Position numbers and translations under genes: made by a program | Shown here: positions 2,114 through 64,000 of the stretch, in pieces | Position numbering within the stretch: position 1 is the first letter of the stretch | How the letters are laid out: every line of letters begins with the position of its first letter | Assembly: GCF_016786325.1 (NCBI RefSeq) | Contig: NZ_JADWYU010000196.1 | Location: 1 to 64,000, forward strand | Source: Frankia nepalensis | GTDB taxonomy: Bacteria; Actinomycetota; Actinomycetes; Frankiales; Frankiaceae | Length of the DNA: 64,000 bases | Reading direction: 5' to 3' | The notes under the pieces: generated by a model | Told to the model about the DNA's origin: nothing | The model's database searches: none | Seen by the model: the letters and a program-made list of their open reading frames with translations, nothing else

Positions 2114-3793
2114 GTGACCCCTCCGGCACCCCGACCGGCCCACCCGCCGGCGCGGACCCTCACCGAGCTGCGCGGCCTGCTCGCCGGGCTCGGCAGCCTC
2201 CCGCCGACCGCCGAACCGGCCGTCGGCGCCGCCGGCCCGCCCGCCACGCGTGGTGAGGTCGTACTGCGCGGCGTCACCCACGACTCCCGCGCGGTCCGGC
2301 CCGGTGACCTGTACGCCGCGCTGCCCGGGGCCCACGCGCACGGCGCCGACTTCGCGACCGCCGCGGCCGCGGCCGGCGCCGCCGCGGTGCTGACCGACGC
2401 CGCCGGTGCCGCCGCGCTCGCCGGCCGGCTGGACGCGCCCGTGCTCGCGACCACGAACCCGCGCCGCGACCTCGCCCAGATCGCCGACTGGCTCTACGAC
2501 CAGCCGTCGCGCAAGCTCACCCTGCTGGGCGTCACCGGTACGAACGGCAAGACCACCTCGGCCTTCCTCGTCGACGCGGGCCTGCGGGCCGCCGGGCACC
2601 GCACCGGCCTGCTCGGCACCGTCGAGACCCGGATCGGCGACGAGCGCCTCTCCTCGGCGCGGACCACGCCGGAGTCCGCCGACCTGCAGGCGCTGTTCGC
2701 GGTGATGGTCGAGCGCGGGGTCACCGCCGCCACGATGGAGGTCTCCAGCCACGCGCTCGCCCAGCACCGCGTCGACGGCCTGCGGTTCGCCGGCGCGCTG
2801 TTCACCAACCTGAGCCAGGACCACCTCGACTACCACCCGACGATGCGGGACTACTTCGAGGCCAAGGCGACGCTGTTCGAACCGGCGCGCAGCGCGGTCT
2901 CGGTGATCGGCGTCGACCCGGCCTCCGGCGACTGGGGGCGCAGGCTCGCCGACCGCGTCCCGGGAGCGCTCACCTTCGCGCCCGCGCCGCCGGCCGACTG
3001 GTGGGCCGAAGACCTGGTCGTCAGCGAGCGGGGCAGCACGTTCACCGCGCGGGGGCCCCGGGGTTCCGCGCAGGTCGGCGCGGGCGAAACGGATCCGGGA
3101 GGTCCGGGGCTCGCCGTGCCGGTCCGGGTCGGGCTGCCGGGGCGGTTCAACGTCGTCAACGCGCTCGGCGCGCTCGCGCTGCTGGTCGCCGCCGGCGTGC
3201 CCGCCGAGGCCGCGGCGGAGGGGATCGGCGAGCTCACCGGCGTCCCCGGGCGGATGGAGCGGGTCGAGGCCGGCCAGCCCTACCTCGCGCTCGTCGACTA
3301 CGCGCACACCCCGGACGCGGTGGAGACCGTGCTCGGCTCCGTGCGGGGCCTCGTCGAGGGCCGGCTCATCGTCGTGCTCGGCTGCGGGGGGGACCGGGAC
3401 AGGGCCAAACGCCCGCTCATGGGCGCCGCGGCGGCCCGGCTGGCGGACCTCGCGTTCTTCACGAACGACAACCCGCGCTCCGAGGACCCGGCGGAGATCC
3501 TCGTCCAGATGACGGCCGGGGTCGCCAGGGCCGGCACGTCGGCGGCGAAGGTGACGGTCATCCAGGACCGCGCGGAGGCGATCGCGGCGGCGGTCGCCGA
3601 GGCCGGCCCCGGCGACGCGGTCGTCGTCGCCGGCAAGGGCCACGAGCGTGGCCAGGAGCAGGACGGGGTGGTGACTGCGTTCGACGACCGGGAGGCGCTG
3701 GCCGCGGCCATCGCCAGCGCGCTGGCCGCCGGGCCGGCGGCGCCCGCGGGTGGCCGCCCGTCGCCCGCGGGCGGTCAGGCGGCGGGCCGATGA
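2114..3793 (+). CDS. murE: UDP-N-acetylmuramoyl-tripeptide synthetase MurE (meso-diaminopimelate-adding)
   Basis: Cytoplasmic ATP-dependent ligase that adds the third residue to UDP-MurNAc-L-Ala-D-Glu. The 559-residue product has the N-terminal MurE substrate domain (THDSRAVRPGDLY), the ATP loop [10 protein letters not shown], the TTPES substrate segment, the YFEAKATLF segment with the usually carbamylated lysine, and the DNPRSEDP motif. In this family DNPR marks meso-DAP rather than lysine specificity, which fits actinobacterial DAP-type wall. The GTG start at 2114 follows a 194-base gap after ftsI. The last four bases overlap murF (ATGA), indicating translational coupling. The C-terminus carries a short Gly/Pro/Ala-rich tail. 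Confidence 0.94.
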   Translation: MTPPAPRPAHPPARTLTELRGLLAGLGSLPPTAEPAVGAAGPPATRGEVVLRGVTHDSRAVRPGDLYAALPGAHAHGADFATAAAAAGAAAVLTDAAGAAALAGRLDAPVLATTNPRRDLAQIADWLYDQPSRKLTLLGVTGTNGKTTSAFLVDAGLRAAGHRTGLLGTVETRIGDERLSSARTTPESADLQALFAVMVERGVTAATMEVSSHALAQHRVDGLRFAGALFTNLSQDHLDYHPTMRDYFEAKATLFEPARSAVSVIGVDPASGDWGRRLADRVPGALTFAPAPPADWWAEDLVVSERGSTFTARGPRGSAQVGAGETDPGGPGLAVPVRVGLPGRFNVVNALGALALLVAAGVPAEAAAEGIGELTGVPGRMERVEAGQPYLALVDYAHTPDAVETVLGSVRGLVEGRLIVVLGCGGDRDRAKRPLMGAAAARLADLAFFTNDNPRSEDPAEILVQMTAGVARAGTSAAKVTVIQDRAEAIAAAVAEAGPGDAVVVAGKGHERGQEQDGVVTAFDDREALAAAIASALAAGPAAPAGGRPSPAGGQAAGR

Positions 3794-6445: not shown

Positions 6446-7953
6446 CCGCCGCTGACGTACCGACCGGCGTCGGCGTCACCGGCGTCGACGACGTCAAGGG
6501 CGTCCCGGTGACGGTCGTCGGCGTCGGGGTCTCCGGCGCCGCGGCCGCGCTCGCGCTCGTCGAGCTCGGCGCCCAGGTGCACGCCGTCGACGCCGGGGAC
6601 GGCGAGCAGGCCCGCGCCGCCGCGGCCGAGCTGCGCGCCGCCGGCGCGCGGGTCACCCTCGGCGGGCTGCCGGCCGAGCCCGGCGCGGCCCGGCTGGTGG
6701 TCACCTCGCCCGGCGTCCCGCCGGGCACGCCGCTGCTCGCCGCGGCCCGCGCCGCGGGGATACCGGTCTGGGGGGAGGTCGAGCTCGGCTGGCGGATCCG
6801 GCCGGGCGCCCGCTGGCTCGCCGTCACCGGGACGAACGGCAAGACCACGACCACCGAGATGCTCGGCGCGATCCTCGCCGCGGACGGCCGGCGGTCCACG
6901 ACCGCCGGCAACATCGGCACCCCGGTCGTCACCGCCGCGCTGGCCGAGCCGCCCTACGACACGCTCGCCGTGGAACTGTCCAGCTTCCAGCTGCACTACA
7001 CCGACACGGCCGCCCCGATCGCCGCCGCGGTCCTCAACGTGGCGCCTGACCACCTCGACTGGCACGGCGGCCCGGACGGCTACGCGGCCGACAAGGCCCG
7101 GATCTGGCGGCACCCGGGCACCATCGCCGTCGGTAACGCCGACGACCCGGTCAGCGCGGCGCTGCTCGCCCGCGCGCCGGGCCGGCGGGTCACCTTCGGG
7201 CTGGACCCGGCCACCGCGGACGTGACGGTCGTCGACGGCGAGCTGGTCGACCGGGCCTTCGACGGCGGGCCGCTGCTCGCCGTCGCCGACCTGCTCGCGG
7301 GTGGCCCGGCCGATCCCGCTGGCGGGCCGCCCGCGGGGGGGAGGCCTCCCGGAGCTCGGGCGCCCTCCGCGGGCGGCGCCGCGGGACCCGGGCGCCACCT
7401 GATCGCGAACGCGCTCGCCGCGGCGGCGCTCGCGCGCGCCGACGGGGTCGCGCCCGCCGCCATCGCCGAGGCGCTCGCCGCCTACCGGCCGGGGGCGCAC
7501 CGCGACGCCCATGTCGTCACCGTCGACGGCGTGCGCTACGTCGACGACAGCAAGGCGACCAACCCGCACGCGGCCCTCGCGTCGCTGACCGCCTACCCGT
7601 CGGTGGTGTGGATCGCCGGCGGGCTGAACAAGGGGCTCGCCTTCGACGAACTGGTCGCGGCGGCCCGCGACCGGCTGCGCGCGGTGGTCCTGATCGGGCG
7701 GTGCGCGGACGAGATCGAGGCGGCTCTCGCCCGACACGCCCCCGATGTCCCCGTGGAACGGGCCGCTGGCATGGACGATGCGGTGGAGGCCGCGGCGAGG
7801 CTCGCCCGGGCGGGCGACACGGTACTGCTCGCGCCCGCCGCCGCCTCGATGGACATGTTCCGCGACTATGCCGAGCGTGGCGATCTGTTCGCCGCGGCGG
7901 CGAGTCGTCGGGGGAGCGACGTCTCCCCGGGTGGGCAGAGTCGAGGAGGCTAG
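6442..7953 (+). CDS. murD: UDP-N-acetylmuramoylalanine--D-glutamate ligase MurD
   Basis: Cytoplasmic ligase adding D-glutamate to UDP-MurNAc-L-Ala. The open frame starts far upstream inside mraY. The GTG at 6442, overlapping the mraY stop as GTGA, places the Rossmann-like N-terminus ([17 protein letters not shown]) near residue 17. The ATP loop [12 protein letters not shown] and the [12 protein letters not shown] segment mark the central domain. [13 protein letters not shown] marks the substrate-binding C-terminal domain. The product is 503 residues, a little long for the family because of a Gly/Pro/Ala-rich insert near nt 7300-7390. ftsW starts eight bases after the stop. Confidence 0.93.
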
Positions 7954-7960
7954 CGGCACC

Positions 7961-10231
7961 GTGCGCGAGGCGCCGAGCACGAGATCGGGAGGCGGGGCCG
8001 GCTCCGGCCTCGGTCCGGCGTCCGGTCAGCGGGCCCGCGCCCGGACCGCCGAGGCCGGCCGAGCCGGCGCTGCCGGCCGGATCCGCGCTGAGGACGCGGT
8101 CCCGCCCGTGGGCGGCGCGGATCTTTCGAACCAGCCTCGCGGAACCGGCGGGAACCCCGGGCGCCGCCAGACCGGGAGAAACCCCGCGCCCGCGCGCCGG
8201 GAACGCTCGGCGCCGTCCCGGGAACCGGCCAGGCCCGCCGCCGGGCGGGACAGGGCCGCGCCGGCGCGCGAGGGCCGCCGGCCGAGGCCCGTGACGCTGC
8301 GTGACGCGATGGCGCCCGCGGTGGGGGCTCCCACGATCGGCAAGACGTCCGGGGCGGCTTCCTCGGCGGCGGCTTCTTCGAGGGCCGCGGAGCCGGGGCG
8401 GCGCCCGGCCCGGGCCGGGCAGCGCCGCGCCGTGCTGCGGGCGGTCCCCGACACGCCGGGTGTCCCGTTCGCCAAGCTGCCGCTGCTGGAGCGGCCGCTG
8501 GCGTCCTACTACCTGCTCGGCTCGTCGGCGGGCCTGCTGCTGCTGCTCGGCCTGGTGATGGTGCTCTCGGCGTCCAACGTGCGCTCGTTCGCCGACTTCG
8601 GCTCGTCCTACACGGTCTTCCTGCGGCAGGCCACCTGGATGGGCATCGGCCTGCCGATCCTGCTCGTCGCGAGCCGCACGCCGGTTCGGCTGTTCCGCCG
8701 GGCCGCCTACCCGCTGCTCGCCGTGACGCTGCTGATGCTCCTGCTCGTGCTCTCGCCGTTGGGCGTGTCGTCCAACGGTGCCCAGCGCTGGGTGGGCTTC
8801 GGGCCGCTCACGCTGCAGCCCAGCGAGCTGGCGAAGCTCGCGCTCGTGCTGTGGTCGGCGGACCTGCTCACCCGCAAGCGCCGCCTCCTCGGCGACTGGA
8901 AGCACCTGATCATCCCGATCGTGCCGGTGACGGTGTTCGTCGGCGGCCTGATCATGCTGCAGCCCGACATGGGTACCACGATCATCGCCTTCTCGGTGCT
9001 GTTCGTCGCGCTGTGGGTGGTGGGCACCCCGGGGCGGGTGTACGGCGCCCTGCTCGGGGTGATCGCGCTCGTCGCCACGGTGCTGGCGGTGATCGAGCCC
9101 TACCGGCTCGCGCGGCTGCTGTCCTACCGCGATCCGTTCGACGACGCCCAGGGCAGCGGCTGGCAGGCCGTGCACGGGATCTACGCGCTCGCCTCGGGTG
9201 GCTGGTGGGGAGAGGGTCTCGGGGCGTCCCGGGAGAAGTGGCCCGACCTGCTGCCCGCGCCCTACACCGACTTCATCCTCGCCATCCTCGGCGAGGAGCT
9301 GGGGCTGCTCGGGTGCCTGGTGGTGGTGACCCTGTTCGGCGTCTTCGGCTACGCCGGGCTGCGGGTGGCGCACCGCACGGACAACCACTTCGTCCGGCTG
9401 GCCGCCGCCGCGTCCACCGGCTGGATCCTCGCCCAGGCCGTGGTCAACATGGGCGCGGTCGTCGGCCTGCTGCCGATCACCGGCATCCCGCTGCCGCTGG
9501 TCTCGTTCGGCGGCTCGTCGCTGGTCCCGACCATGTTCTCGATCGGCATGCTGCTCGCGTTCGCCCGTTCGGAGCCGGCGGCGGCCCGGCTGCTGGCGGA
9601 GCGCGCCGAGGCGCGCAAGGCGGCCCGCCGCGCGCGGCGCGGGCGACGCGGCGCGGATGGCGCCGCCGGGCCGAAGCGGGCCCGCTTCTCCATCCACCGC
9701 GCGGGCCGGAGCGGTCCCGGCCCGCGCGCCGGCGGCTCGGGTCGCGCCGCCTCGGGCCGTGCGACCTCGGGCCGCGTGACGTCGGATCGCGCGCCCTCGG
9801 GCCGCGCTACGTCGGATCGCGCGACGCCGAGCCGTGCGGCGTCGGACCGCGCGGCGTCGAAGCGCGCGACCTCGGGCCGCCGTGACGCGGACGAGCGCGG
9901 CCCGCGCGGCGGCCGGGACCAGAGCGGCCGGGACCAGAAAGGCGGCACGGCGGGCCGAGCGCGTCCCCACGGCAGGGAGCCGGGCGACCGCGCCGAAACG
10001 GGGGCTGAGCCCGGGCCGGCGCGCGCCCGCCCGCGGGCCCGGCCTCGCGCCGGTGAGGGAGGCGCCCGGGAGGCCCGAGCCGCCCGTGGGGGCGCGGGCC
10101 GCCAGGGCACGGCGCGCCAGGCCGGAGCCGCCAGGGACACGGGTGGCGCGGCTCGCGGCCGGCGGAGCCCGGAGCCCGGGCCCTACCACCGTCCGCGCTC
10201 CGGACCGGACGGCCCGCCCGCGGCCGGCTGA
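7961..10231 (+). CDS. ftsW: Lipid II polymerase FtsW (SEDS family) with long disordered N- and C-terminal arms
   Basis: FtsW is the septal peptidoglycan glycosyltransferase that works with FtsI. The start GTG at 7961 is chosen because a GAGGAGG-like ribosome binding site lies at 7943-7949 and it clears the murD stop. The SEDS membrane domain runs from about residue 175 to 550. It contains the [30 protein letters not shown] and [12 protein letters not shown] segments typical of FtsW/RodA. It is flanked by a basic, Ser/Ala/Arg-rich N-terminal arm of about 170 residues. The C-terminal arm is about 200 residues and very rich in Arg, Gly and Ser, with short repeats such as SGRAT and SDRA. FtsW proteins are usually 400-550 residues, so the 756-residue length is due to these arms. 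Confidence 0.9.
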
Positions 10232-54776: not shown

Positions 54777-55644
54777 CGCATGCCGTCCCGGATAACGCCG
54801 GCGGTTTGCCGCGCGATTTTCACGACTGGCTCCCTGGCTGAGCTGGAAACCGGTTTACATCCGGCATGCTAGGTGGCGGGAGCGCCCGCCGCGGAGCGAC
54901 GCGGTCGTAAACCAAACGACAGCGACGAATATACGCGCGCGGTGGGCCGCGTACCCAGGAAAAGCCTGGTCAGCGAACCCTGGGATTTCCAGGCCCTCCT
55001 GGGCGCGGGCTCCCGGCCGGCTGGGCGCTGGTTCGGCGCGCCCAGGCTCCTGACCTGGGCATCCGCGAATTCCCGCCGCGGACGGCCGGCTTGGGGTGGG
55101 CCAGTTCGGACGTTGGCAACCCTGGGTTGGAGACAAGTGCGAGACAGCGGGCTCAAACACGGGCGGGGAGGCCGATGTCGGCGACGCGACAGGGGCAGCA
55201 CTGTTTGACGATCGCCCGGGACCCGCGGCGAACGCATCCCACGGGGCGAGAGTGGACTTCGCGCGAGATCCGAGAGGAAAGAGCGGGGCTCCGCCGGACT
55301 TCCGTCAGTAAAGAGTTCGAGCCGATTCCGCCGCGGATACCAGGACCATGATCGGTGGGTCGGGACGTGCCCGGTGACCACGCGCCGCGGCGGCTCGCGG
55401 TGCCGGCCCGAGTTCCGGCGGCGGCCGGAAGGATCTCCGCCGTCTCCGGGGCGTCCCGCATCCGCCCCCCCGCGGTTGCTCGCTGGTGCGTCAGTGGGTC
55501 GCGGCCCTGCCACGGTACCGCCCATACAGGGTGTTACGGTCATGCGCGGCTTCCGGCTCGGTTCGGAAGAAACAGCGGAGATCCTTCTCGCGCGGGGCGG
55601 GCCTGGCGCTGGCGAAGGGCCCGCGTCGCGAGACGGGGGTCGGG
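54777..55644. other. Divergent control region between the two acyltransferase genes
   Basis: Nearly 870 bases without a convincing gene; frames here are Arg/Pro-rich with no ribosome binding sites. The stretch from about 54820 to 54995 is less GC-rich than its surroundings and contains the inverted-repeat pair listed separately, so promoters for both directions probably lie here. Confidence 0.5.
54955..54993. promoter_or_regulatory. Pair of inverted repeats (CCAGG-N5-CCTGG and CCTGG-N5-CCAGG)
   Basis: CCAGG AAAAG CCTGG occupies 54955-54969 and CCTGG GATTT CCAGG occupies 54979-54993. The centres are 24 bases apart, about 180-215 bases upstream of the minus-strand acyltransferase start. This could be an operator pair; the short arms make chance possible. 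Confidence 0.35.
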
Positions 55645-56988
55645 ATGCGATCAGAGTCCCTTGGTGGAGTCGACTCCCCTGGTGGCGCGCACCTGGGTGG
55701 CCGGCCGCTGAGCCGGATGGACCGGCACATGCTCGACTTCCAGCGCGCCTATCCCACCCGTCCGGTCAGCGTCACCTGTTGTCTGTTGCGGGTGGCCGGG
55801 GTGCCGGATCTCGACGAGGTGCGGGCGGCGGTGCTCGAACGCGTCCAGGCGTTCCCGGCGCTCACGGAGCGGCTGGTGGAACGCCGCGGCCGCGCCCCGC
55901 GCTGGGAGCCCGGTGGGGAGATCGACATGGCCCGCCAGGTGCGGGAGCACCGGCTGCCGGCGGGCGCGACCGAGGACGACCTGCGGGCGGCGGCCGCGCG
56001 GCTGTCGGGGATCGTGACGCCGCTGGACGGGCCGGCGTGGGAGGTCGGCCTGCTCACCAGCCCCGGCGCGGGCGACTCCCATGTCTTCTTCCGCGCCAGC
56101 CACGTCTGGGTGGACGGCCTCTCGCAGAACAGGGTGCTGACGTTCCTGTTCGGCGACGAGACCGCGGCCGGGGCCGGCCCGACCTGGACGCGGACCGGAA
56201 AGCTGACGCCCGGCGCGCTGATGTCGGCCGCGAGGCTCCAGGCCGCCAGCTGGGCCGGACCGTCCGGCGGGCTCGCGGCCCTCGCCGGGCCAGCCGAGGA
56301 TCGCCACAGCGTGGGCTGGGCGTCCGTCGGGGTCGACCGGTTGCGCGCGGTCGGCCGGGCCTACGGGGCTTCCGTCAACGACGTGTACCTGGTCACCGTG
56401 GGTGGGGCGCTCGCGGCCTGGTCGTCGCCGGTGGGTCGGTCGCCGGTGCGGACGGTGCTCTCGGTGAGTGCCCGACGCGCGAGTGAGCACTCCGTGCTCG
56501 GCAACGCCTTCGTGGCGACCCGGGTGGCGCTGCCCCTGGGACTCGCCTCGCCAGCCGAGCGGTTCGAGCGGGTGTGCCGCCAGACCGCCCCCTACAAGGG
56601 GGGCTCGAGCGTGAGCCTTGGCGTGCGTTTCTGGTCCGACCGGGTGCCGGCCCGGTTCGGGCACCTGACCATCGGGGGCGGCCAGGAGCTCGGCAAGGCC
56701 GCGGTGAACACATCGAATCTGGGGCCGGTTTCCGGGCCGCTGACGGTGGCTGGAGCTCCGGTCACCGCGGTGTTGCCGGTGCCGGCCGCGCGGGAGGGCC
56801 GCCGGCAGGTGCTCGTCACGCTCGGTGGCCTCGGGCGGACGGCCACCGCCGGCTTCACCGTGCCCGTGCCAGGTGGCGCGGAGCTGGCCGAGCTCTGGCT
56901 GGCCGAGATCGAGGACCTGGAGCGCGCGGCCGGGATCGTCCCGGCGCCAGACCAGGCCGTGGCCACGCTGGCCGAAGATCGCGGATAG
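55645..56988 (+). CDS. Second WS/DGAT-like acyltransferase
   Basis: The 447-residue product from ATG 55645 resembles the divergent acyltransferase: LSRMDRHMLDFQRAYPTRPV at the start, the catalytic-type SHVWVDGLSQN (HxxxDG with tryptophan and valine), VGRAYGASVNDVYLVTVGGA and VLGNAFVATRVALPLGL. The two are probably paralogues or two partners acting on one pathway. The frame is open from 55486, but similarity begins after 55645. The ribosome binding site is weak (GGGGGT). A DHA2-type exporter gene follows 160 bases downstream. Confidence 0.8.
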   Translation: MRSESLGGVDSPGGAHLGGRPLSRMDRHMLDFQRAYPTRPVSVTCCLLRVAGVPDLDEVRAAVLERVQAFPALTERLVERRGRAPRWEPGGEIDMARQVREHRLPAGATEDDLRAAAARLSGIVTPLDGPAWEVGLLTSPGAGDSHVFFRASHVWVDGLSQNRVLTFLFGDETAAGAGPTWTRTGKLTPGALMSAARLQAASWAGPSGGLAALAGPAEDRHSVGWASVGVDRLRAVGRAYGASVNDVYLVTVGGALAAWSSPVGRSPVRTVLSVSARRASEHSVLGNAFVATRVALPLGLASPAERFERVCRQTAPYKGGSSVSLGVRFWSDRVPARFGHLTIGGGQELGKAAVNTSNLGPVSGPLTVAGAPVTAVLPVPAAREGRRQVLVTLGGLGRTATAGFTVPVPGGAELAELWLAEIEDLERAAGIVPAPDQAVATLAEDRG

Positions 56989-57148
56989 CGCTGGCGCTGG
57001 ACAACGGACGGGGCACGTCCTTCGCGGAGCGAACGCTCGTCCGTGCGCGTCCCGACTCGAGGGGCGCAGGTGACGCGTGCCAGGATGAGCGCCTGGCCGG
57101 CCAGCGCGACCGACCCACGACGCCGCAGGTCAGGGAGGGGGTACGGAC

Positions 57149-58621
57149 GTGGCCGCCGAGGCCATGCCGGGGGTCGCCACCGGGACGTCCCAGGTAGTCA
57201 GGTTCCGCGCGGGCGCGCAGTACGCGCTGCTCGCCGGCCCGCTGTTGACGATGCTCGACTCCAGCATCGTCAACGTCGCCGTCGAGCCGATCGCCCGACA
57301 GACGGACGCGTCGCTGCCGACGGTGCAGTGGATCGTCAGTGGTTATCTGCTGGCTCTCGGCACGGGGCTCGCGCTCACCTCCTATCTGTCTCGGCGCTTC
57401 GGCATCATCCCCACCTACACCGGGTTCCTTGCCGCCTTCACCGCCGCGTCCGCGCTGTGCGGGGTGGCGCCGGGCGTGGGTGCGCTCATCGCCGCGCGGG
57501 TGCTGCAGGGCCTCGCGGGCGCTCCGCTCGTACCGCTGGCGATGTCGATGCTGCTCGGCGGGTCCGGTGGGTCGAGACGGATGTCGCCGGCCGCCGGCGT
57601 CCTGCTCTTCCTCGGTCCGGCGCTCGGCCCCAGCATCGGCGGCATGCTGCTCGGCGCGGTCGGCGGTGGCCAGGGCTGGCGGGCCATCTTCTTGATCAAC
57701 GTTCCGATCGGGCTGCTGGCCGTCGCCGCGGCCCGGCGGCTGCCCACGAACCTCGCGCCGCCGGCCGAGCCGGCGGCCCGGCCCGATCTCGCTGGCCTTG
57801 GCCTGCTCGCAACAGGGCTGGTCGCCGTGTTCTACGGCGTGGACCAGGTCACCCGCGCGGCCCTGAGCCCGCCGGAGACGTGGGGGCCGATCGTCGGCGG
57901 CGTCGCGGTGCTGGCCATCTACGCGTTCCGGTCGGGTCGGGTCGCGCATCCGGCGCTCGACCTGTCGATCCTGCGCCAGGGGACCGTCGCGCTGGCTTTC
58001 ACGCTGTGCGGGGCCGCATCGGTCGCGGCGTGGTCGATCGTGTTCGTCGTCCCGATCTTCCTGGAGTCGGGCCAGGGGCACTCGGCGTTCATGACCGGTG
58101 TGACGCTGTTGCCACAGGGGATCGTCACCGGAGTCGGCACGCTCGCGGGCGCGGGCGCGGCCGCGCGTATCGGGGTGCGCCCCACGGTCCTGTCCGGGTT
58201 CGCCCTGCTCGTCGCCTCGAGCGCGGGCCTGTTCGCGATCGGCGCGGGGACCCCGCTGTGGCTGACCGGGCTGATCCTGACCGCCCGCGCCGCGGCGGTC
58301 GGGCTGGTCATCACGCCGCTGGTCCTGGTGGCGACCGAGCCGCTGCGGCCCGAGCAGCAGGCCGACGCGAACACCGCCTTCAACGTCGTCCAGCGGGTTC
58401 TCGGCTCGTTCGGGATCGGCATCGTCGCGACCCTGTTCACCCACCGCGCCGCCGCGGCCGGGCAGGTGTCCGCGCTGCACACCGTCGCCATCGTGATCAC
58501 GATCCTGGCCGCCCTGGCGACGCTCGCGGCCGTGTTCCTCCCGGAGGCGCGCGCGGAGAACCTGCTGGCCATGGGCGGGCAGGGCAAGAGCACGGCTGAC
58601 GGCGATCCGGGCGGCGACTGA
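57149..58621 (+). CDS. DHA2-family (EmrB/QacA) MFS exporter
   Basis: Proton-driven exporter of drugs or metabolites in the cytoplasmic membrane. GTG 57149 follows AGGGAGGGG. The 490-residue product has about 14 hydrophobic segments. Helix 1 has the family motif LLTMLDSSIVNVAVEPIA; helix 2 carries VQWIVSGYLLALGTGLALTS, and motif C-like GVLLFLGPALGPSIGGML follows. The middle holds an inserted loop (residues about 190-215). In this context it may export the product of the acyltransferase/tyrA locus and give self-resistance. Confidence 0.88.
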   Translation: MAAEAMPGVATGTSQVVRFRAGAQYALLAGPLLTMLDSSIVNVAVEPIARQTDASLPTVQWIVSGYLLALGTGLALTSYLSRRFGIIPTYTGFLAAFTAASALCGVAPGVGALIAARVLQGLAGAPLVPLAMSMLLGGSGGSRRMSPAAGVLLFLGPALGPSIGGMLLGAVGGGQGWRAIFLINVPIGLLAVAAARRLPTNLAPPAEPAARPDLAGLGLLATGLVAVFYGVDQVTRAALSPPETWGPIVGGVAVLAIYAFRSGRVAHPALDLSILRQGTVALAFTLCGAASVAAWSIVFVVPIFLESGQGHSAFMTGVTLLPQGIVTGVGTLAGAGAAARIGVRPTVLSGFALLVASSAGLFAIGAGTPLWLTGLILTARAAAVGLVITPLVLVATEPLRPEQQADANTAFNVVQRVLGSFGIGIVATLFTHRAAAAGQVSALHTVAIVITILAALATLAAVFLPEARAENLLAMGGQGKSTADGDPGGD

Positions 58622-59004: not shown

Positions 59005-59315
59005 CGCGCGGGACCCTTCTGACGCCCGGCTCCGCGCGCGCGAGTTCGTCGTCGCCGCGCGGCGCCGGCCGCCCTGGCCGTCTCCGCCGGAGCCGGCCCC
59101 GGACCGGGCATCGCTGGCGCCGTGCCGCTCTGCCTGCCCGAGCCGTCGCGGCGCCGCCGCCGCCCGCGGCGGCCTATCCACTGAGAAAGTGGGGCGACGA
59201 GTTCGGCGAATCCGCTTGACCGCGACGCGCCGGTGCGCTGAAGTCATGGAGGCCGACGCGCGCGGGGGACGGGTCAGGGCCTTCTTCTCCCGAGCCTGTG
59301 TCCGGGAGGGGCCTC
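59005..59315. other. Spacer upstream of the giant gene
   Basis: About 310 bases with no convincing gene. It should carry the promoter of the giant-protein and radical SAM unit; CCGCTTGACC near 59211-59220 is a weak -35-like match only. Confidence 0.35.
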
Positions 59316-62300
59316 GTGGATTTCGCCGCGCTCGACGCTCGTTTAACGGTTACGAACGGCGTGTTCGTGCTCGCCGCGAACACGCTGCCGGACGCCGGTC
59401 TGGCCGAACTGCTCGCGCGCAACAACGCCGGCCAGCCGATCCGCGTCACCCAGGCCGTCAAGCAAAGACCGAAACGGGTCGGCTCCGGCTCGCGCGACAG
59501 CATTCCCATCACGGGCGTGGCGACTTTCCTCAACGTACCCGACCTGCGAGTCGAGGCGTTGTTCTCCCTGGATGACGCCGGTAACCCGGTGTTCCTCCTC
59601 CGTTTCGAACTGGAGACGCGGACCGGCCCCGAGCGGCCCTTCGGCTGGCGCTTCTCGACCAGCTTCCCGACCCTGCCCGCCGGCAAGAGCGGGCCGGCGG
59701 GCGGGTCGGCCGCGCCCACGTCGGGCCCGGCCACCCCGGCCGCGCCCGGGCCGCTCGACGGCCTCACGCTGTCCAACGCCACCTTCGTGCTCACCAACCG
59801 GTCGGGCATGGACGGCCGGGTGCCGGTGTCCGCGGGCCTGAACTTCGTCTCCCGCGTCGACCCCGCGCCGCTGCTCGGTCCGCTCGGGCCGATCGTCGGC
59901 GACGTCGGCAAGCCCACCCTGTACGGGCCGGTGCACCTGCCGCTGCCGACCGAGGTGACGCCGCCGCTGCCGCCGGGCCGCTGGCCGTGGGAGGCCGACC
60001 TCGCGCCGGTGCCGGGGCTCACGCTGCGCGTCGACGTCGGCCGGTCGATCGCCGTCCCCGGGGTCAACGTCAACGTGCGCGACACCGAGATCGTCCTCTA
60101 CTCGCCGATCAGCGAGGCGTGGCTCGAGGCCAACCCGACCTACCAGCCGTCGGTCGGCCTCACCGGGACCCTCAGCGCGCCCGCGTTCGTCCCCGCGCCG
60201 ATCCTCCTGACGGCCGACATCCCCTTCGGCTGGTCGTCGGCGACGCTGTCCGCGACCTTCACCGACGCGAGCCTCGCGAACCTGACGGGCCTCGGCGGGC
60301 TGTTCGGCCGTAGCGACCTGTTCGCGGCGCTGCCGGCGCCGCTGCGCGCCGCCGGGCAGGCGCTCGGCGGCATCAGCCTGCGCCTCGTCGCGTTCCACGT
60401 GACCGCCGGCGACCGGGGGCTCACGCTCGACGCGGCCCGCGCCGTCGTCGAGCTGCCGACGCTGCGCTACGCCGTCGGCGACCTGGTCACGCTCGCCGCG
60501 CCCCGGGTCACGTTCCTCGCGCTCCCGCCCGCCTCGGGCAGCGGCGGCCTCTCGACCAGCGTGATGATCGGCGGCACGGGCACGATCCCCGCGCTCGGCG
60601 CGGCCTTCGAGCTCGACGTCGACGTGACGCAGGGCGTCGCGTACGGCTCGCTCGCCGACGCGACGCTGCCCCTGCGGCGGGTCTTCGACGATCTGGCCCT
60701 GCCCGCCCCCGCCGACCTGGTCATCGACGCGGCGCGGATCAGCATCGCCCCCGGCGAGGCGTACGAGCTCAATGCCACGATCGCCGAGGACGTCCCGTGG
60801 ACGCTCGACCTCGGCCCGGTGCCGGTCTCCGTGCGCGGCATCGTGCTCGTCGCGATGAAGATCGTCGGCGAGCCGGCCTCGGCGTCGCTGGCGGGGCGGA
60901 TCAGGTTCGGGTCGTCGCTCGAGATCGCCGCGCTCTACGAGCTGCCCGGCGACTTCGTGATCACCGGGACCTTCGGGCCCGGGTCGCTCGGCGATCTGGT
61001 GACGGCGTTGACCGACGCCGAGGTCACCCTGCCCGCCGGCTTCGACCTCGAGATCGAGCAGGGGTTCGTCTGTGTCGACTCGGTCGCCGGCGGGCTGCGC
61101 TTCACCGCCACCGCGCTGATCGACGGGTTCGGCGCGCTCGCGTTCACGGCGAGCCGCCGCGACGGCCGCTGGAGGTTCGCCGCCGGGCTGAACGTCACCG
61201 AGGGCCTCGTCACCCTCGAGTCGGTCCCGGGCCTCGGCGCGCTCGCCGAGCTGCGCGCGCTCGTCGGGCTGACCGACCTGATGATCGTCGTGTCGTCCCT
61301 GGACGACCCCGGGTTCACGTTCCCCGAGCTGGCCGTGCCGCCGCCGCCCGACCTCGGCGGCCCGCGGCCCGCCCTGCCCGCGCAGGCGACCGGCGTCGGC
61401 GCCGGGCTCACGGTCTACGGCCGGGCCGACCTCGGCGCGAGCCGCGCCGTCCAGACGATCGCCCGCTGGCTCGACGTCGACATCGCCGGGACCGCCGCCG
61501 TGACGCTCGTCGTCAGCGCGCCCGACCCCGGCGCCGGGTCGCGGCTGTTCGTCAGCGTCGCGACGACCGTCGACGGGATCGTGGTCACGGGCCGGCTCGG
61601 CCTCGGGCTCGTCAACCGCCGCCCCGAGGTGTTCCTCGACGGCACGGCGCTCGTCACCCTCCAGGGCCAGCCGGTCCTGTTCTCGCTGGCCGCCGCCGTC
61701 GCCGCGAACGGCGTCCTGATCTCCGGCGGGTACCGCGGCACGATCCACTTCGACCTCGGCGCGGGCCTCGGCGGCTTCACGCTGAGCAACCTCGGCCTCG
61801 TCGTGGGACTGAGCTGGGAGGGCATCCCCGCCTTCGGCGTCGCGGCGACGATCGACGCCCGGACCTTCTCCAGCTCCGTCGCCGTGTTCTTCGACTCGAC
61901 CGACCCGAGCCGTAGCCTGCTCGCGGGGTCGGTCACCGAGCTGTCCCTCTACGACGTCGTCGCCACGATCGCGGGGCAGACCGACGTCGCCGAGGCGCTC
62001 GCCGTCGTGCTGCGCGAGATGGCGCTGCGGGCGCTCGACGCGTTCACGCTGGACGCGGCGGTCGTCGCTGCGCTCGACGGGCGCGACCTGGCCGCGGTCG
62101 CCGCCGCGTTCGCGCCGCGCCGGCCGGTCCCCTCCGGCGCGGACCAGGTGCTCCTGAACGTCGGCGAGCCGGGCCGGTCCTGGCACCTGACCGACCTCAC
62201 GACCATGACGCACTTCAGCCTCGCCGCGACCGGGGCGGGCGTCGAGGTCAGCTACGACCCGCAGCTCTACTGCGCGCCGAACGACACCCAGATCGGGCCG

Positions 62301-63389
62301 AACCGCTTCCCGCGCGGCTTCCACATCCAGACGGCCATCGAGTTCCTCCTGTTCGACCTCGACCGCCTGTGGGTCGAGATCAGCCCGGCGCGCGGGATCG
62401 CGGCGGACGCCATGGTCGCGCCGATCGTCGTCGGGCACCCCGACCTGTTCTCGATCACGAACGCCGCGCGCGACGGCGGGCCGACGCTGTCCCTCGCGAC
62501 GTACACGCGGTCCGCCGCCGAGCAGCCCGACCCGGAGCTGCGCCCGCCGCACGTCCTGGTCAGCGGCGCGCTGCGGCTGCTCGGCACCGACTTCGGCTCG
62601 GTCCACCTCAACGTCAGCGAGTCCGGCGTCACCGTCCGGATCACCGCGACCGTCGGCGGCGGGGTCCGGGTCGACCTCGCGGGAAGCGTGACGAGGGAGG
62701 CGCTGCGGATCTCGGGCACGCTCGCCGTCGGCGTCGGCGGCACCATCGACCTCGGCCCGCTCGGCCGGATCGACGTCACCACCCAGGCGCGGGGCACCCT
62801 GGAGATCGAGTTCGCGCGCGACTCGCTGAGCGCGACGGTCCGCGTCGGGGTGACGCTGCCGGGCCTGGGCTCGCTGACCCTCCCGCCGATCCACCTCACG
62901 GTGAGCGGCGTGCCGCTCGGCGAGATCGGGAGCGTGATCTGGTCCGAGATCATCGAGACGGTCGTCGCGGCCGTACAGGACGCGACGCGCTGGGTCGGCT
63001 TCGTCCGCGACGGCCTGATCAAGGGCATCGAGGGCGCGGCGCGGGTCGCCGAGGTGCTCGCCGAGCAGTGGAACCTCGCGGCGGACGCCGTCGGCGACGT
63101 CCTGCACGACGCCGGCTACACGGCGAACCAGGTCGCGGAGGGGATGCGGGCCGTCGGCGCGACCGCCGAGGACGTCGCGCGGACCCTCGTCGACTTCGGC
63201 TACGCCACGGACATCGTCAACAGCGCGGTCGGCATCTTCGGCGGCCACACCGACTTCGTCGCCGGGCACTTCGACATCCCCGGCGGCTTCCACACCGACG
63301 GGCACGCCGACTTCGGCCTGCTCGGCGGCGGCCACGTCGACGAGCGGATCCCGCCGCACACGGACAGCCGCATCCATGTCGACACGTGA
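59316..63389 (+). CDS. Giant beta-rich protein of unknown family with C-terminal His-X-Asp tail
   Basis: GTG 59316 has GGAGGG five bases upstream (59305-59310); GTG 59298 lacks a site. The 1357-residue product has no signal peptide or transmembrane helix that I can see. Nearly all of it alternates hydrophobic and polar residues in short strands, with repeated phrases such as DGLTLSNATFVLTN, FTLSNLGLVVGLSWEGIPAF and LPGLGSLTLPPIHLTVSG. This suggests long stacked beta-sheet modules. Residues about 1215-1305 are helical (GFVRDGLIKGIEGAARVAEV). The last 47 residues hold seven HxD motifs. A radical SAM gene follows, so the tail may be a modification substrate. I do not recognise the family. Confidence 0.75.
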   Translation: MDFAALDARLTVTNGVFVLAANTLPDAGLAELLARNNAGQPIRVTQAVKQRPKRVGSGSRDSIPITGVATFLNVPDLRVEALFSLDDAGNPVFLLRFELETRTGPERPFGWRFSTSFPTLPAGKSGPAGGSAAPTSGPATPAAPGPLDGLTLSNATFVLTNRSGMDGRVPVSAGLNFVSRVDPAPLLGPLGPIVGDVGKPTLYGPVHLPLPTEVTPPLPPGRWPWEADLAPVPGLTLRVDVGRSIAVPGVNVNVRDTEIVLYSPISEAWLEANPTYQPSVGLTGTLSAPAFVPAPILLTADIPFGWSSATLSATFTDASLANLTGLGGLFGRSDLFAALPAPLRAAGQALGGISLRLVAFHVTAGDRGLTLDAARAVVELPTLRYAVGDLVTLAAPRVTFLALPPASGSGGLSTSVMIGGTGTIPALGAAFELDVDVTQGVAYGSLADATLPLRRVFDDLALPAPADLVIDAARISIAPGEAYELNATIAEDVPWTLDLGPVPVSVRGIVLVAMKIVGEPASASLAGRIRFGSSLEIAALYELPGDFVITGTFGPGSLGDLVTALTDAEVTLPAGFDLEIEQGFVCVDSVAGGLRFTATALIDGFGALAFTASRRDGRWRFAAGLNVTEGLVTLESVPGLGALAELRALVGLTDLMIVVSSLDDPGFTFPELAVPPPPDLGGPRPALPAQATGVGAGLTVYGRADLGASRAVQTIARWLDVDIAGTAAVTLVVSAPDPGAGSRLFVSVATTVDGIVVTGRLGLGLVNRRPEVFLDGTALVTLQGQPVLFSLAAAVAANGVLISGGYRGTIHFDLGAGLGGFTLSNLGLVVGLSWEGIPAFGVAATIDARTFSSSVAVFFDSTDPSRSLLAGSVTELSLYDVVATIAGQTDVAEALAVVLREMALRALDAFTLDAAVVAALDGRDLAAVAAAFAPRRPVPSGADQVLLNVGEPGRSWHLTDLTTMTHFSLAATGAGVEVSYDPQLYCAPNDTQIGPNRFPRGFHIQTAIEFLLFDLDRLWVEISPARGIAADAMVAPIVVGHPDLFSITNAARDGGPTLSLATYTRSAAEQPDPELRPPHVLVSGALRLLGTDFGSVHLNVSESGVTVRITATVGGGVRVDLAGSVTREALRISGTLAVGVGGTIDLGPLGRIDVTTQARGTLEIEFARDSLSATVRVGVTLPGLGSLTLPPIHLTVSGVPLGEIGSVIWSEIIETVVAAVQDATRWVGFVRDGLIKGIEGAARVAEVLAEQWNLAADAVGDVLHDAGYTANQVAEGMRAVGATAEDVARTLVDFGYATDIVNSAVGIFGGHTDFVAGHFDIPGGFHTDGHADFGLLGGGHVDERIPPHTDSRIHVDT
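63246..63386 (+). other. HxD-repeat tail: candidate core peptide for radical SAM modification
   Basis: Residues 1311-1357 contain HTD (1311), HFD (1318), HTD (1326), HAD (1330), HVD (1340), HTD (1348) and HVD (1354), separated by Gly/Pro-rich or aromatic spacers. Aromatic-X-Asp triads are the kind of site cross-linked by three-residue cyclophane (triceptide) radical SAM enzymes, and His-X-Ser repeats mark the Hxs systems. Assignment as a core is inference from motif and neighbour. Confidence 0.55.
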
Positions 63390-63464
63390 GCCCATGCCGA
63401 CACGTGGCCCCCTGCCGTCACGCGATCTCCTGCCGTCACGAGGCCCCGCGTCGACACGTGACCC
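63375..63464 (+). repeat. Five imperfect 18-bp tandem repeats spanning the giant gene's stop codon
   Basis: Units begin at 63375, 63393, 63411, 63429 and 63447. Typical forms are CATGTCGACACGTGAGCC and CATGCCGACACGTGGCCC; units 3 and 4 have CTGCCGTCACG in place of ATGCCGACACG. Unit 1 encodes HVDT and the TGA stop (63387-63389). Read in the same frame past the stop, unit 2 encodes HADTWP and unit 5 encodes RVDT, so the repeat is an extension of the HxD tail that is now outside the gene. Confidence 0.75.
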
Positions 63465-63539
63465 CGGCTCGGGTGGCGCGCCCGGGGGCCGGGACGGCCG
63501 GCCGGGCCGCCGGGCCGGCCTCGGCGTCGAGGACGTCCG

Positions 63540-64000
63540 ATGACGCTCGAGCTGCGCCCACTCGGCGTCGCGTGCAACATCGCCTGCGCCTACTGCTACC
63601 AGGACCCGCAGCGCGACGCCGGCAACGTCGAGGCGCGCTACTCGCTCGACGCGATGAAGGCGGCGGCCGAGCGGCGGGGCGGCCCCGTGACGCTGTTCGG
63701 CGGCGAGCCGTTGATGCTGCGCCTCGCCGACCTCACCGACCTGCTGCGCTGGGGCGCCGAGCGGCCGGGCGGCGTCGGGATCCAGACCAACGGCACCCTC
63801 GTCACGGACGCGCACGTCGCGCTGTTCCGGACGTACCAGGTGAAGGTCGGGATCTCCGTCGACGGCCCGGATGAGCTCAACGACCTGCGCCGGCAGGGAT
63901 CGCTCGAGCGGACCCGGGCCGCCACGCGGGCGACGCTCGACGCGGTCGCCCGCCTCGCCCGCGAGCACCAGCCGCCCGGGCTGATCGTCACCCTGCACCG
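63540..64000 (+). CDS. Radical SAM enzyme, probable peptide/protein maturase (3' end beyond window)
   Basis: ATG 63540 starts a frame open to the right edge (153 codons). The product begins MTLELRPLGVACNIACAYCY, with the radical SAM cysteine motif CxxxCxxC at residues 12, 16 and 19 binding the [4Fe-4S] cluster. TLFGGEPLML carries the GGEP motif that contacts SAM, and IQTNGTLV and GISVDGPDELND follow as in SPASM-type maturases. It lies 150 bases after the giant gene. A SPASM or twitch domain would be beyond the window. The family's use of adjacent precursors suggests it modifies the HxD tail. Confidence 0.85.
   Translation, partial: MTLELRPLGVACNIACAYCYQDPQRDAGNVEARYSLDAMKAAAERRGGPVTLFGGEPLMLRLADLTDLLRWGAERPGGVGIQTNGTLVTDAHVALFRTYQVKVGISVDGPDELNDLRRQGSLERTRAATRATLDAVARLAREHQPPGLIVTLH

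Follow-up and report, generated by a model that had tools for sequence, protein, structure and literature searches.

A SPASM radical SAM enzyme family associated with aromatic-x-Asp/Asn tails of giant bacterial proteins and with phage repeat proteins

The substrates known for radical SAM cyclophane chemistry are RiPP precursor peptides, and the anaerobic sulfatase maturase (anSME) oxidises a β-carbon without making a cross-link. In Hxs systems, His-x-polar repeats lie beside radical SAM genes, with HxsB and HxsC as the radical SAM pair. The known three-residue cyclophane enzymes (3-CyFEs) make i,i+2 cross-links of the Trp-Asn/Asp, Tyr-Asp, His-Ala and His-Arg types (PMC11002830), and the ChlH domain of ChlBH hydroxylates His and Asp in a cyclophane peptide (PMC12636437). 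Furthermore, a 2024 paper noted a radical SAM (rSAM) module in the Thermus phages phiMa and Cumys, composed of an rSAM protein, a DUF483 protein and a third protein, and guessed at a function in DNA modification (PMC11437467). Here we analyzed a locus of Frankia nepalensis (genome of 10.7 Mb), located at the end of a 64,000-nucleotide stretch of DNA, termed the window, which combines a giant protein ending in His-x-Asp (HxD) triads with an adjacent radical SAM gene.

The giant carrier protein comprises 1357 residues (59316–63389, forward strand) and yielded zero matches in Pfam, NCBIfam or the PDB sequences, whereas an orthologue from the same genus shares 57–59% identity with it. Its start was assigned to the GTG at 59316, where the ATG of this orthologue aligns; another GTG is found at 59298. 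The carboxy-terminal 47 residues (63246–63386, forward strand; HTDFVAGHFDIPGGFHTDGHADFGLLGGGHVDERIPPHTDSRIHVDT) form a tail with seven HxD triads (HTD HFD HTD HAD HVD HTD HVD), the proposed modification site, where all 7 His and all 7 Asp fall within the triads. Seven triads were reached in 0 of 200,000 tail shuffles, with a maximum of 6 obtained once, and shuffles of the whole protein never gave more than 3 HxD per 47 residues. In the same scan, which covered 524 reading frames in the window, no other frame exceeded 3 HxD, and the giant protein itself has two further HxD outside the tail, at about residues 811 and 1041. The reading frame, the Pfam and NCBIfam searches and the shuffles thus confirm the original prediction of a 1357-residue protein outside known families that ends in a seven-triad tail. 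Between the orthologous tails the His and Asp residues are kept at 14/14 positions, compared to 14/34 for the others.

The final ~330 residues of the giant protein are homologous to crystallin- and laminin-G-bearing giants of Myxococcota. Immediately 5' of the tail, a segment that looks helical by sequence (62926–63245, forward strand, boundaries approximate) is common in the alignment to the Nannocystis giants and the giant of genome G1017, and is a candidate recognition region, which may act as a built-in leader. Five degenerate 18-bp tandem units span the stop codon of the giant gene (63376–63465, forward strand); read in frame past the stop they give AHADTWPPAVTRSPAVTRPRVDT, in which HAD and VDT are still present, and they may be what is left of a formerly longer HxD tail. 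The region 5' of the giant gene (55486–58621) encodes a WS/DGAT-type acyltransferase-like protein and an MFS transporter, and no phage gene was recognised in the scan of the window-end proteins.

The radical SAM/SPASM gene starts at 63540 on the forward strand, 150 nt past the stop codon of the giant gene, with its first 153 codons inside the window (63540–64000), and carries the CxxxCxxC and GGEP motifs, all in agreement with the original prediction. On the extended contig (C253; 72,856 bp) the complete gene occupies 63540–65702 (L009 9540–11702) and encodes 720 residues, comprising the radical SAM and SPASM parts (1 to ~350), a Gly/Ala linker and a DUF483-like domain (~450–700), the latter matching a profile built in this analysis with an E-value of 3e-28. 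The SPASM domain, whose presence had been left to this extension, has the complete Cys pattern (C245-x14-G-x4-C265, C299-x2-C302-x5-C308-x3-C312-x15-C328), which is invariant in alignment A1. The HExxH motif of the TIGR04267-type domain is absent from the enzyme sequence, and in the actinomycete and Nannocystis enzymes the DUF483-like part carries a degraded form of the LGYPxCC motif. As to the genes following the enzyme, also left to the extended contig, a third gene encoding 324 residues lies past the window (C253 65699–66673; L009 11699–12673) and overlaps the enzyme stop by 4 nt. Its product weakly resembles endonuclease/exonuclease/phosphatase proteins (E 2e-4, under the gathering score), its order is kept in the same-genus genome G001 (38% identity) and it may belong to the same operon as the enzyme.

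The closest PDB sequences to the enzyme were anSME (1.8e-15) and then ChlB (1e-10). Likewise, the predicted enzyme structure (pLDDT 90) aligned to ChlB and anSME over 322–326 residues, the two being tied at a Z-score of about 29.5, whereas CteB reached 24, EpeE 14 and the others less than CteB. A radical SAM core with a full SPASM domain is the architecture of three-residue cyclophane enzymes, although none of the curated cyclophane-maturase models (AmcB, YhhB, GrrM/OscB, XyeB, FxsB) was reached, the best being AmcB with 64.5 bits against a cut-off of 425; the enzyme of locus L012 gave 76.7 bits against these models. Assignment as an anaerobic sulfatase maturase was rejected, with TIGR03942 at 52.8 bits against a cut-off of 349 and no sulfatase recognised among the scanned window-end genes. 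Membership of the Hxs systems was rejected as well, based on the HxD/HxN repeats, the single radical SAM gene and the lack of any Hxs model among the 25 best of 63 NCBIfam matches. The analysis identified neither a separate leader nor an RRE domain. For the DUF483-like protein (model pLDDT 91), which has conserved CC and PCxxxC cysteines, the best structure was 2guk, of unknown function, with a Z-score of 8.4 over 102 residues, which is no clear fold match. Neither NCBIfam (2026) nor PHROGs holds a dedicated family for the enzyme or the substrates.

The enzyme family spans at least four bacterial phyla, one haloarchaeal provirus-like region, 49 IMG/VR contigs and three isolated Thermus phages. 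In a survey of the same class the enzyme was found in 2 of 394 genomes, both from the genus of the host, while genome scans yielded close relatives with 41–56% identity in the best segment in the armatimonadote Chthonomonas, two acidobacteria and three Nannocystis. Whole-genome searches added G001 from the same genus, G745 from the search of the phylum Acidobacteriota, and G1017 and G1143 from Myxococcota or relatives. Each of these bacterial relatives adjoins a triad-bearing protein, but the carriers differ. Chthonomonas has a small protein that combines a signal-like segment with six HxD, Granulicella an anchored-looking protein with seven HSD, locus L014 two proteins with 13 HxD apiece and G745 (L029) a 120-codon frame with nine HxD. 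The Nannocystis carriers are giants with beta/gamma-crystallin domains (Pfam E 5.5e-31), and that of G1017 is a giant with four laminin-G-like domains (E 1.6e-101). The giants of the window, its orthologue and the Myxococcota measure 1100–1627 residues and the phage repeat proteins 186–1476; given these sizes, the substrate at the window locus would not be a short precursor peptide. The DUF483-like part is a gene of its own in Chthonomonas, Granulicella and L014. An alphaKG-HExxH peptide hydroxylase domain (E 1.8e-22) is added to the Nannocystis enzymes, and sequence similar to this domain closes the frame of G1017.

Searching IMG/VR with a profile built from seven enzymes gave the 49 viral loci, in most of which the enzyme is accompanied by a DUF483-like protein and by a repeat protein whose HxD count reaches about 90, with at most 18 per 70 residues. 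The arrangement is not a one-off but one case of a family found far more often in phages, where the proposed substrate is a repeat protein that, where genes are annotated, lies beside tail-fibre genes. Among isolated phages the enzyme is encoded by the Thermus phages phiMa, Cumys and phiLo, of which phiMa and Cumys have Thermus thermophilus HB8 as host. The gene order in Cumys is baseplate proteins, tail collar fibre, a small protein, Cumys_13 (343 residues, 54 HxD), the enzyme and the DUF483 protein, and in phiLo three repeat frames (157, 802 and 478 residues) contain 18, 101 and 72 HxD, respectively. PHROGs places the upstream genes of two contigs in tail fibre, tail spike and host-specificity families, and has zero families for the repeat proteins or the DUF483-like protein. 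On a haloarchaeal plasmid the trio lies downstream of a baseplate J gene, with a repeat protein that blends HxD, YxD and FxD.

Many viral repeat proteins begin with three ~25-residue GSxWIxGxxLxYID units (e.g. L081 7961–8250), which are also present in the haloarchaeal provirus-like region; this triple repeat is a candidate recognition or attachment domain. In 41 of 62 loci the carboxy-terminus of the enzyme itself is a short HxD tail (e.g. L081 9001–10251, L047 5001–6236; example HGDSPHGDSHGDSDHGDSHGDHND), possibly reflecting self-modification or substrate mimicry. The DUF483-like protein is often fused to a carboxy-terminal methyltransferase-like domain with a VLDLGCGNG motif (L047 6220–7581, L035, L060 and other viral loci), a fusion hinting at additional modification. 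The array of L058, a 156-kb viral contig, consists of HxN rather than HxD. On the same contig two proteins (2476–3165 and 6880–8070) show 2OG-oxygenase-like His/Asp motifs by eye, with no Pfam match; they are interspersed among two radical SAM genes and two DUF483-like genes, next to the HxN repeat protein.

The cassette is conserved across this family. An HxD array in another frame was scored at 55 of the 62 enzyme loci, or 54 after dropping a spurious match at L079, where the contig is truncated, and the DUF483-like domain was found at 58 of the 62. The eight exceptions include L030, where the giant protein ends in FVD/HID/YVD, and L058 with its HxN array. Five more are cut at or near the 5' end of the enzyme (L039, L068, L075, L078, L079), and the eighth, L034, is an 8-kb fragment, whose sister phage phiLo has arrays 4.4 kb off. 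The reverse search, a DNA pattern scan of IMG/VR for four period-4 HxD codon sets, also picked up many HxD microsatellites, which were set aside because their repeat units are invariant. The genuine arrays nearly all come with the enzyme; on L111 and L123 a more distant enzyme is encoded elsewhere along the contig, and on the short viral fragments L169 and L188 arrays are present and the enzyme was not found.

Among the homologues of the carboxy-terminal region of the giants, those with an aromatic-x-D tail (G061, G062, G063, G1017 and one copy in G1143) are in all cases directly followed by the enzyme gene, which passes the co-occurrence test on which the original prediction had staked itself. 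In contrast, the enzyme was not found beside the tail-less homologues (the second copies in G062 and G1143, as well as G1123, G1087 and G1097), and it is absent across the whole genomes of G1123, G1087 and G1095. This contrast, read from sequence comparison, is the strongest evidence for the tail as substrate. Since homologues retain tail and enzyme jointly, the tail is very likely the substrate of the adjacent radical SAM/SPASM enzyme, as originally proposed.

Motif statistics for 49 non-redundant arrays (12,930 residues) revealed an aromatic-x-Asp/Asn rule. Asp occupies the +2 position of 94% of the His residues, and Asn is enriched 5.9-fold at the same position. At Asp residues that lack a His two positions earlier, the enrichment at that position is 5.0-fold for Tyr, 4.2-fold for Phe and 3.5-fold for Trp. 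With His, Asp and Asn fixed and the other residues shuffled, aromatic-x-D/N was seen 176 times against 64 in the permutations (maximum 91), and HxN 27 times against 5. As the codons of Phe and Trp are two or three base changes away from those of His, this enrichment indicates selection for an aromatic ring rather than mutation. The arrays were found in genomes of 33% to 68% GC with matching codon choice and varying middle residues, indicating a signal at the protein level. An aromatic residue at i with Asp or Asn at i+2 corresponds to the substrate motif of three-residue cyclophane enzymes; it fits cyclophane formation and argues against metal binding.

The main alternative to a cyclophane is an anSME-like β-carbon oxidation without a cross-link. 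More generally, the enzyme could modify the HxD tail by hydroxylation-type chemistry, epimerisation or another Asp/His bond, which is suggested by the tie of anSME with ChlB in structure and its rank as top PDB sequence match, by the hydroxylase domain added in the Nannocystis copies and by the methyltransferase-like domain that many phage copies add to the DUF483-like protein. We consider such chemistry unlikely as the full account, although it deserves to be taken seriously: selection for an aromatic residue at i with a fixed acidic or amide partner at i+2 matches the rule of three-residue cyclophanes, aromatic substitutes would be unnecessary for a modification of Asp or His alone, and the epimerase structure EpeE is distant. 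That the HxD repeats bind metal, with the radical SAM gene acting on some other target, would draw on His and Asp being good metal ligands and on the His-rich motifs that bind iron in certain phage tail-fibre tips. Because His is preferentially replaced by Phe and Trp, which bind no metals, we rejected metal binding alone as the main account; with tail and enzyme gained and lost jointly and with the HxN array of L058, it appears improbable.

A function in DNA modification, as suggested for phiMa and Cumys from cyanobacterial homologues near deazapurine genes (PMC11437467), is set against a constant partner that is an aromatic-x-D repeat protein next to tail genes, and against an enzyme of SPASM type that is closest to peptide-modifying enzymes. 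The text of that paper mentions neither His nor HxD, and we regard this function as highly improbable. Chance adjacency or a low-complexity DNA repeat might be read from the degenerate 18-bp units after the window tail and from the viral HxD runs that are microsatellites. It is, however, refuted by the shuffle tests of tail and whole protein, by the complete retention of His and Asp between the orthologous tails and by the codon match and varied middle residues across the GC range, leaving it scarcely any credence.

Taken together, we favor as the probable explanation that the adjacent SPASM enzyme turns the tail triads into cyclophanes and that the system is a domesticated phage cassette. The enzyme, aided by its DUF483-like domain, would join the aromatic ring at i (His; Tyr, Phe or Trp in relatives) to the β-carbon of Asp or Asn at i+2. 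The product would be a chain of three-residue cyclophanes at the end of a large carrier protein, with 2 H lost per triad. In the phage version, a neighbour of the tail-fibre genes would encode the substrate, in which triads number from tens to about a hundred, and the product would be a stiff, protease-resistant rod. Points that speak against this explanation are the scores far short of the curated maturase cut-offs, the structural tie with anSME, the lack of an identified separate leader or RRE domain, the degraded LGYPxCC motif and the arrays without an enzyme on the fragments L169 and L188. In a tree of 63 sequences with midpoint root, the ten enzymes from bacteria fall into a single cluster (96/96 support; 97% of bootstrap trees) within the phage diversity. 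The bacterial systems are likely a chromosomal form domesticated from the phage cassette, as judged from these sequences, and this origin is likely rather than proven because the sampling of bacteria started out from the window and the placement of the root is uncertain.

More tentatively, and with slightly more doubt than confidence, we envisage that radical-made His-Asp (and Tyr/Phe/Trp-Asp/Asn) cyclophanes, tens to about a hundred per protein, are present in tail-associated proteins of many tailed phages and that bacteria adopted this machinery to stiffen or protect the carboxy-terminus of giant binding proteins. To our knowledge, a covalently rigidified fibre of the cyclophane kind is not known in any virion. 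By strong genetic association, a distinct and tightly conserved SPASM family acts on the tails of giant proteins as well as on repeat proteins of phages. If cyclophanes are indeed the product, this would be the first radical-SAM cross-linked virion component known to us; it would also supply repetitive peptide rods that are covalently rigid and give the DUF483-like family a function.

Compared to known systems, the new element would be the shift of cyclophane-type radical SAM maturation onto large proteins and phage repeat proteins. Of the two analogies in the original prediction, the three-residue cyclophane fits better, given the aromatics at the His and the Asn at the Asp positions, while Hxs fits less well: its His-x-polar repeats likewise adjoin a radical SAM gene, but here they are HxD/HxN and one radical SAM protein with a DUF483-like part replaces the HxsB/HxsC pair. 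With the 3-CyFEs the family shares SPASM radical SAM enzymes and aromatic-x-x triads; it differs in that the triads lie in tails of 1100–1627-residue giants or in phage proteins with up to about 100 HxD instead of RiPP precursor peptides, in the constant DUF483-like partner and in scores under every NCBIfam cut-off. His-Asp cross-links were not found in the searched open literature, nor did it yield a report tying HxD proteins to radical SAM enzymes. Each half of the proposed His-Asp bond has precedent in OscB (Trp-Asn/Asp), YxdB (Tyr-Asp), and HaaB and YhhB (His); based on the known His, Tyr-Asp and Trp-Asp/Asn cross-links and the action of ChlH on His and Asp, a His-Asp bond made by this family would therefore be a conservative extrapolation. 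ChlBH, a fused radical SAM and alphaKG-HExxH protein (ChlB, PDB 9gm3/9gmc), is alike in that ChlB is among the two nearest structures and that the same HExxH domain type occurs on the Nannocystis enzymes, but the window enzyme has a DUF483-like domain without HExxH and the carriers differ. The rSAM module of phiMa and Cumys comprises the same genes (Cumys_13/12/11), and the window pair, with its radical SAM, DUF483-like and third-gene components, is a relative of it; what differs is that we read the third protein as the putative substrate and add the chromosomal giant-protein versions.
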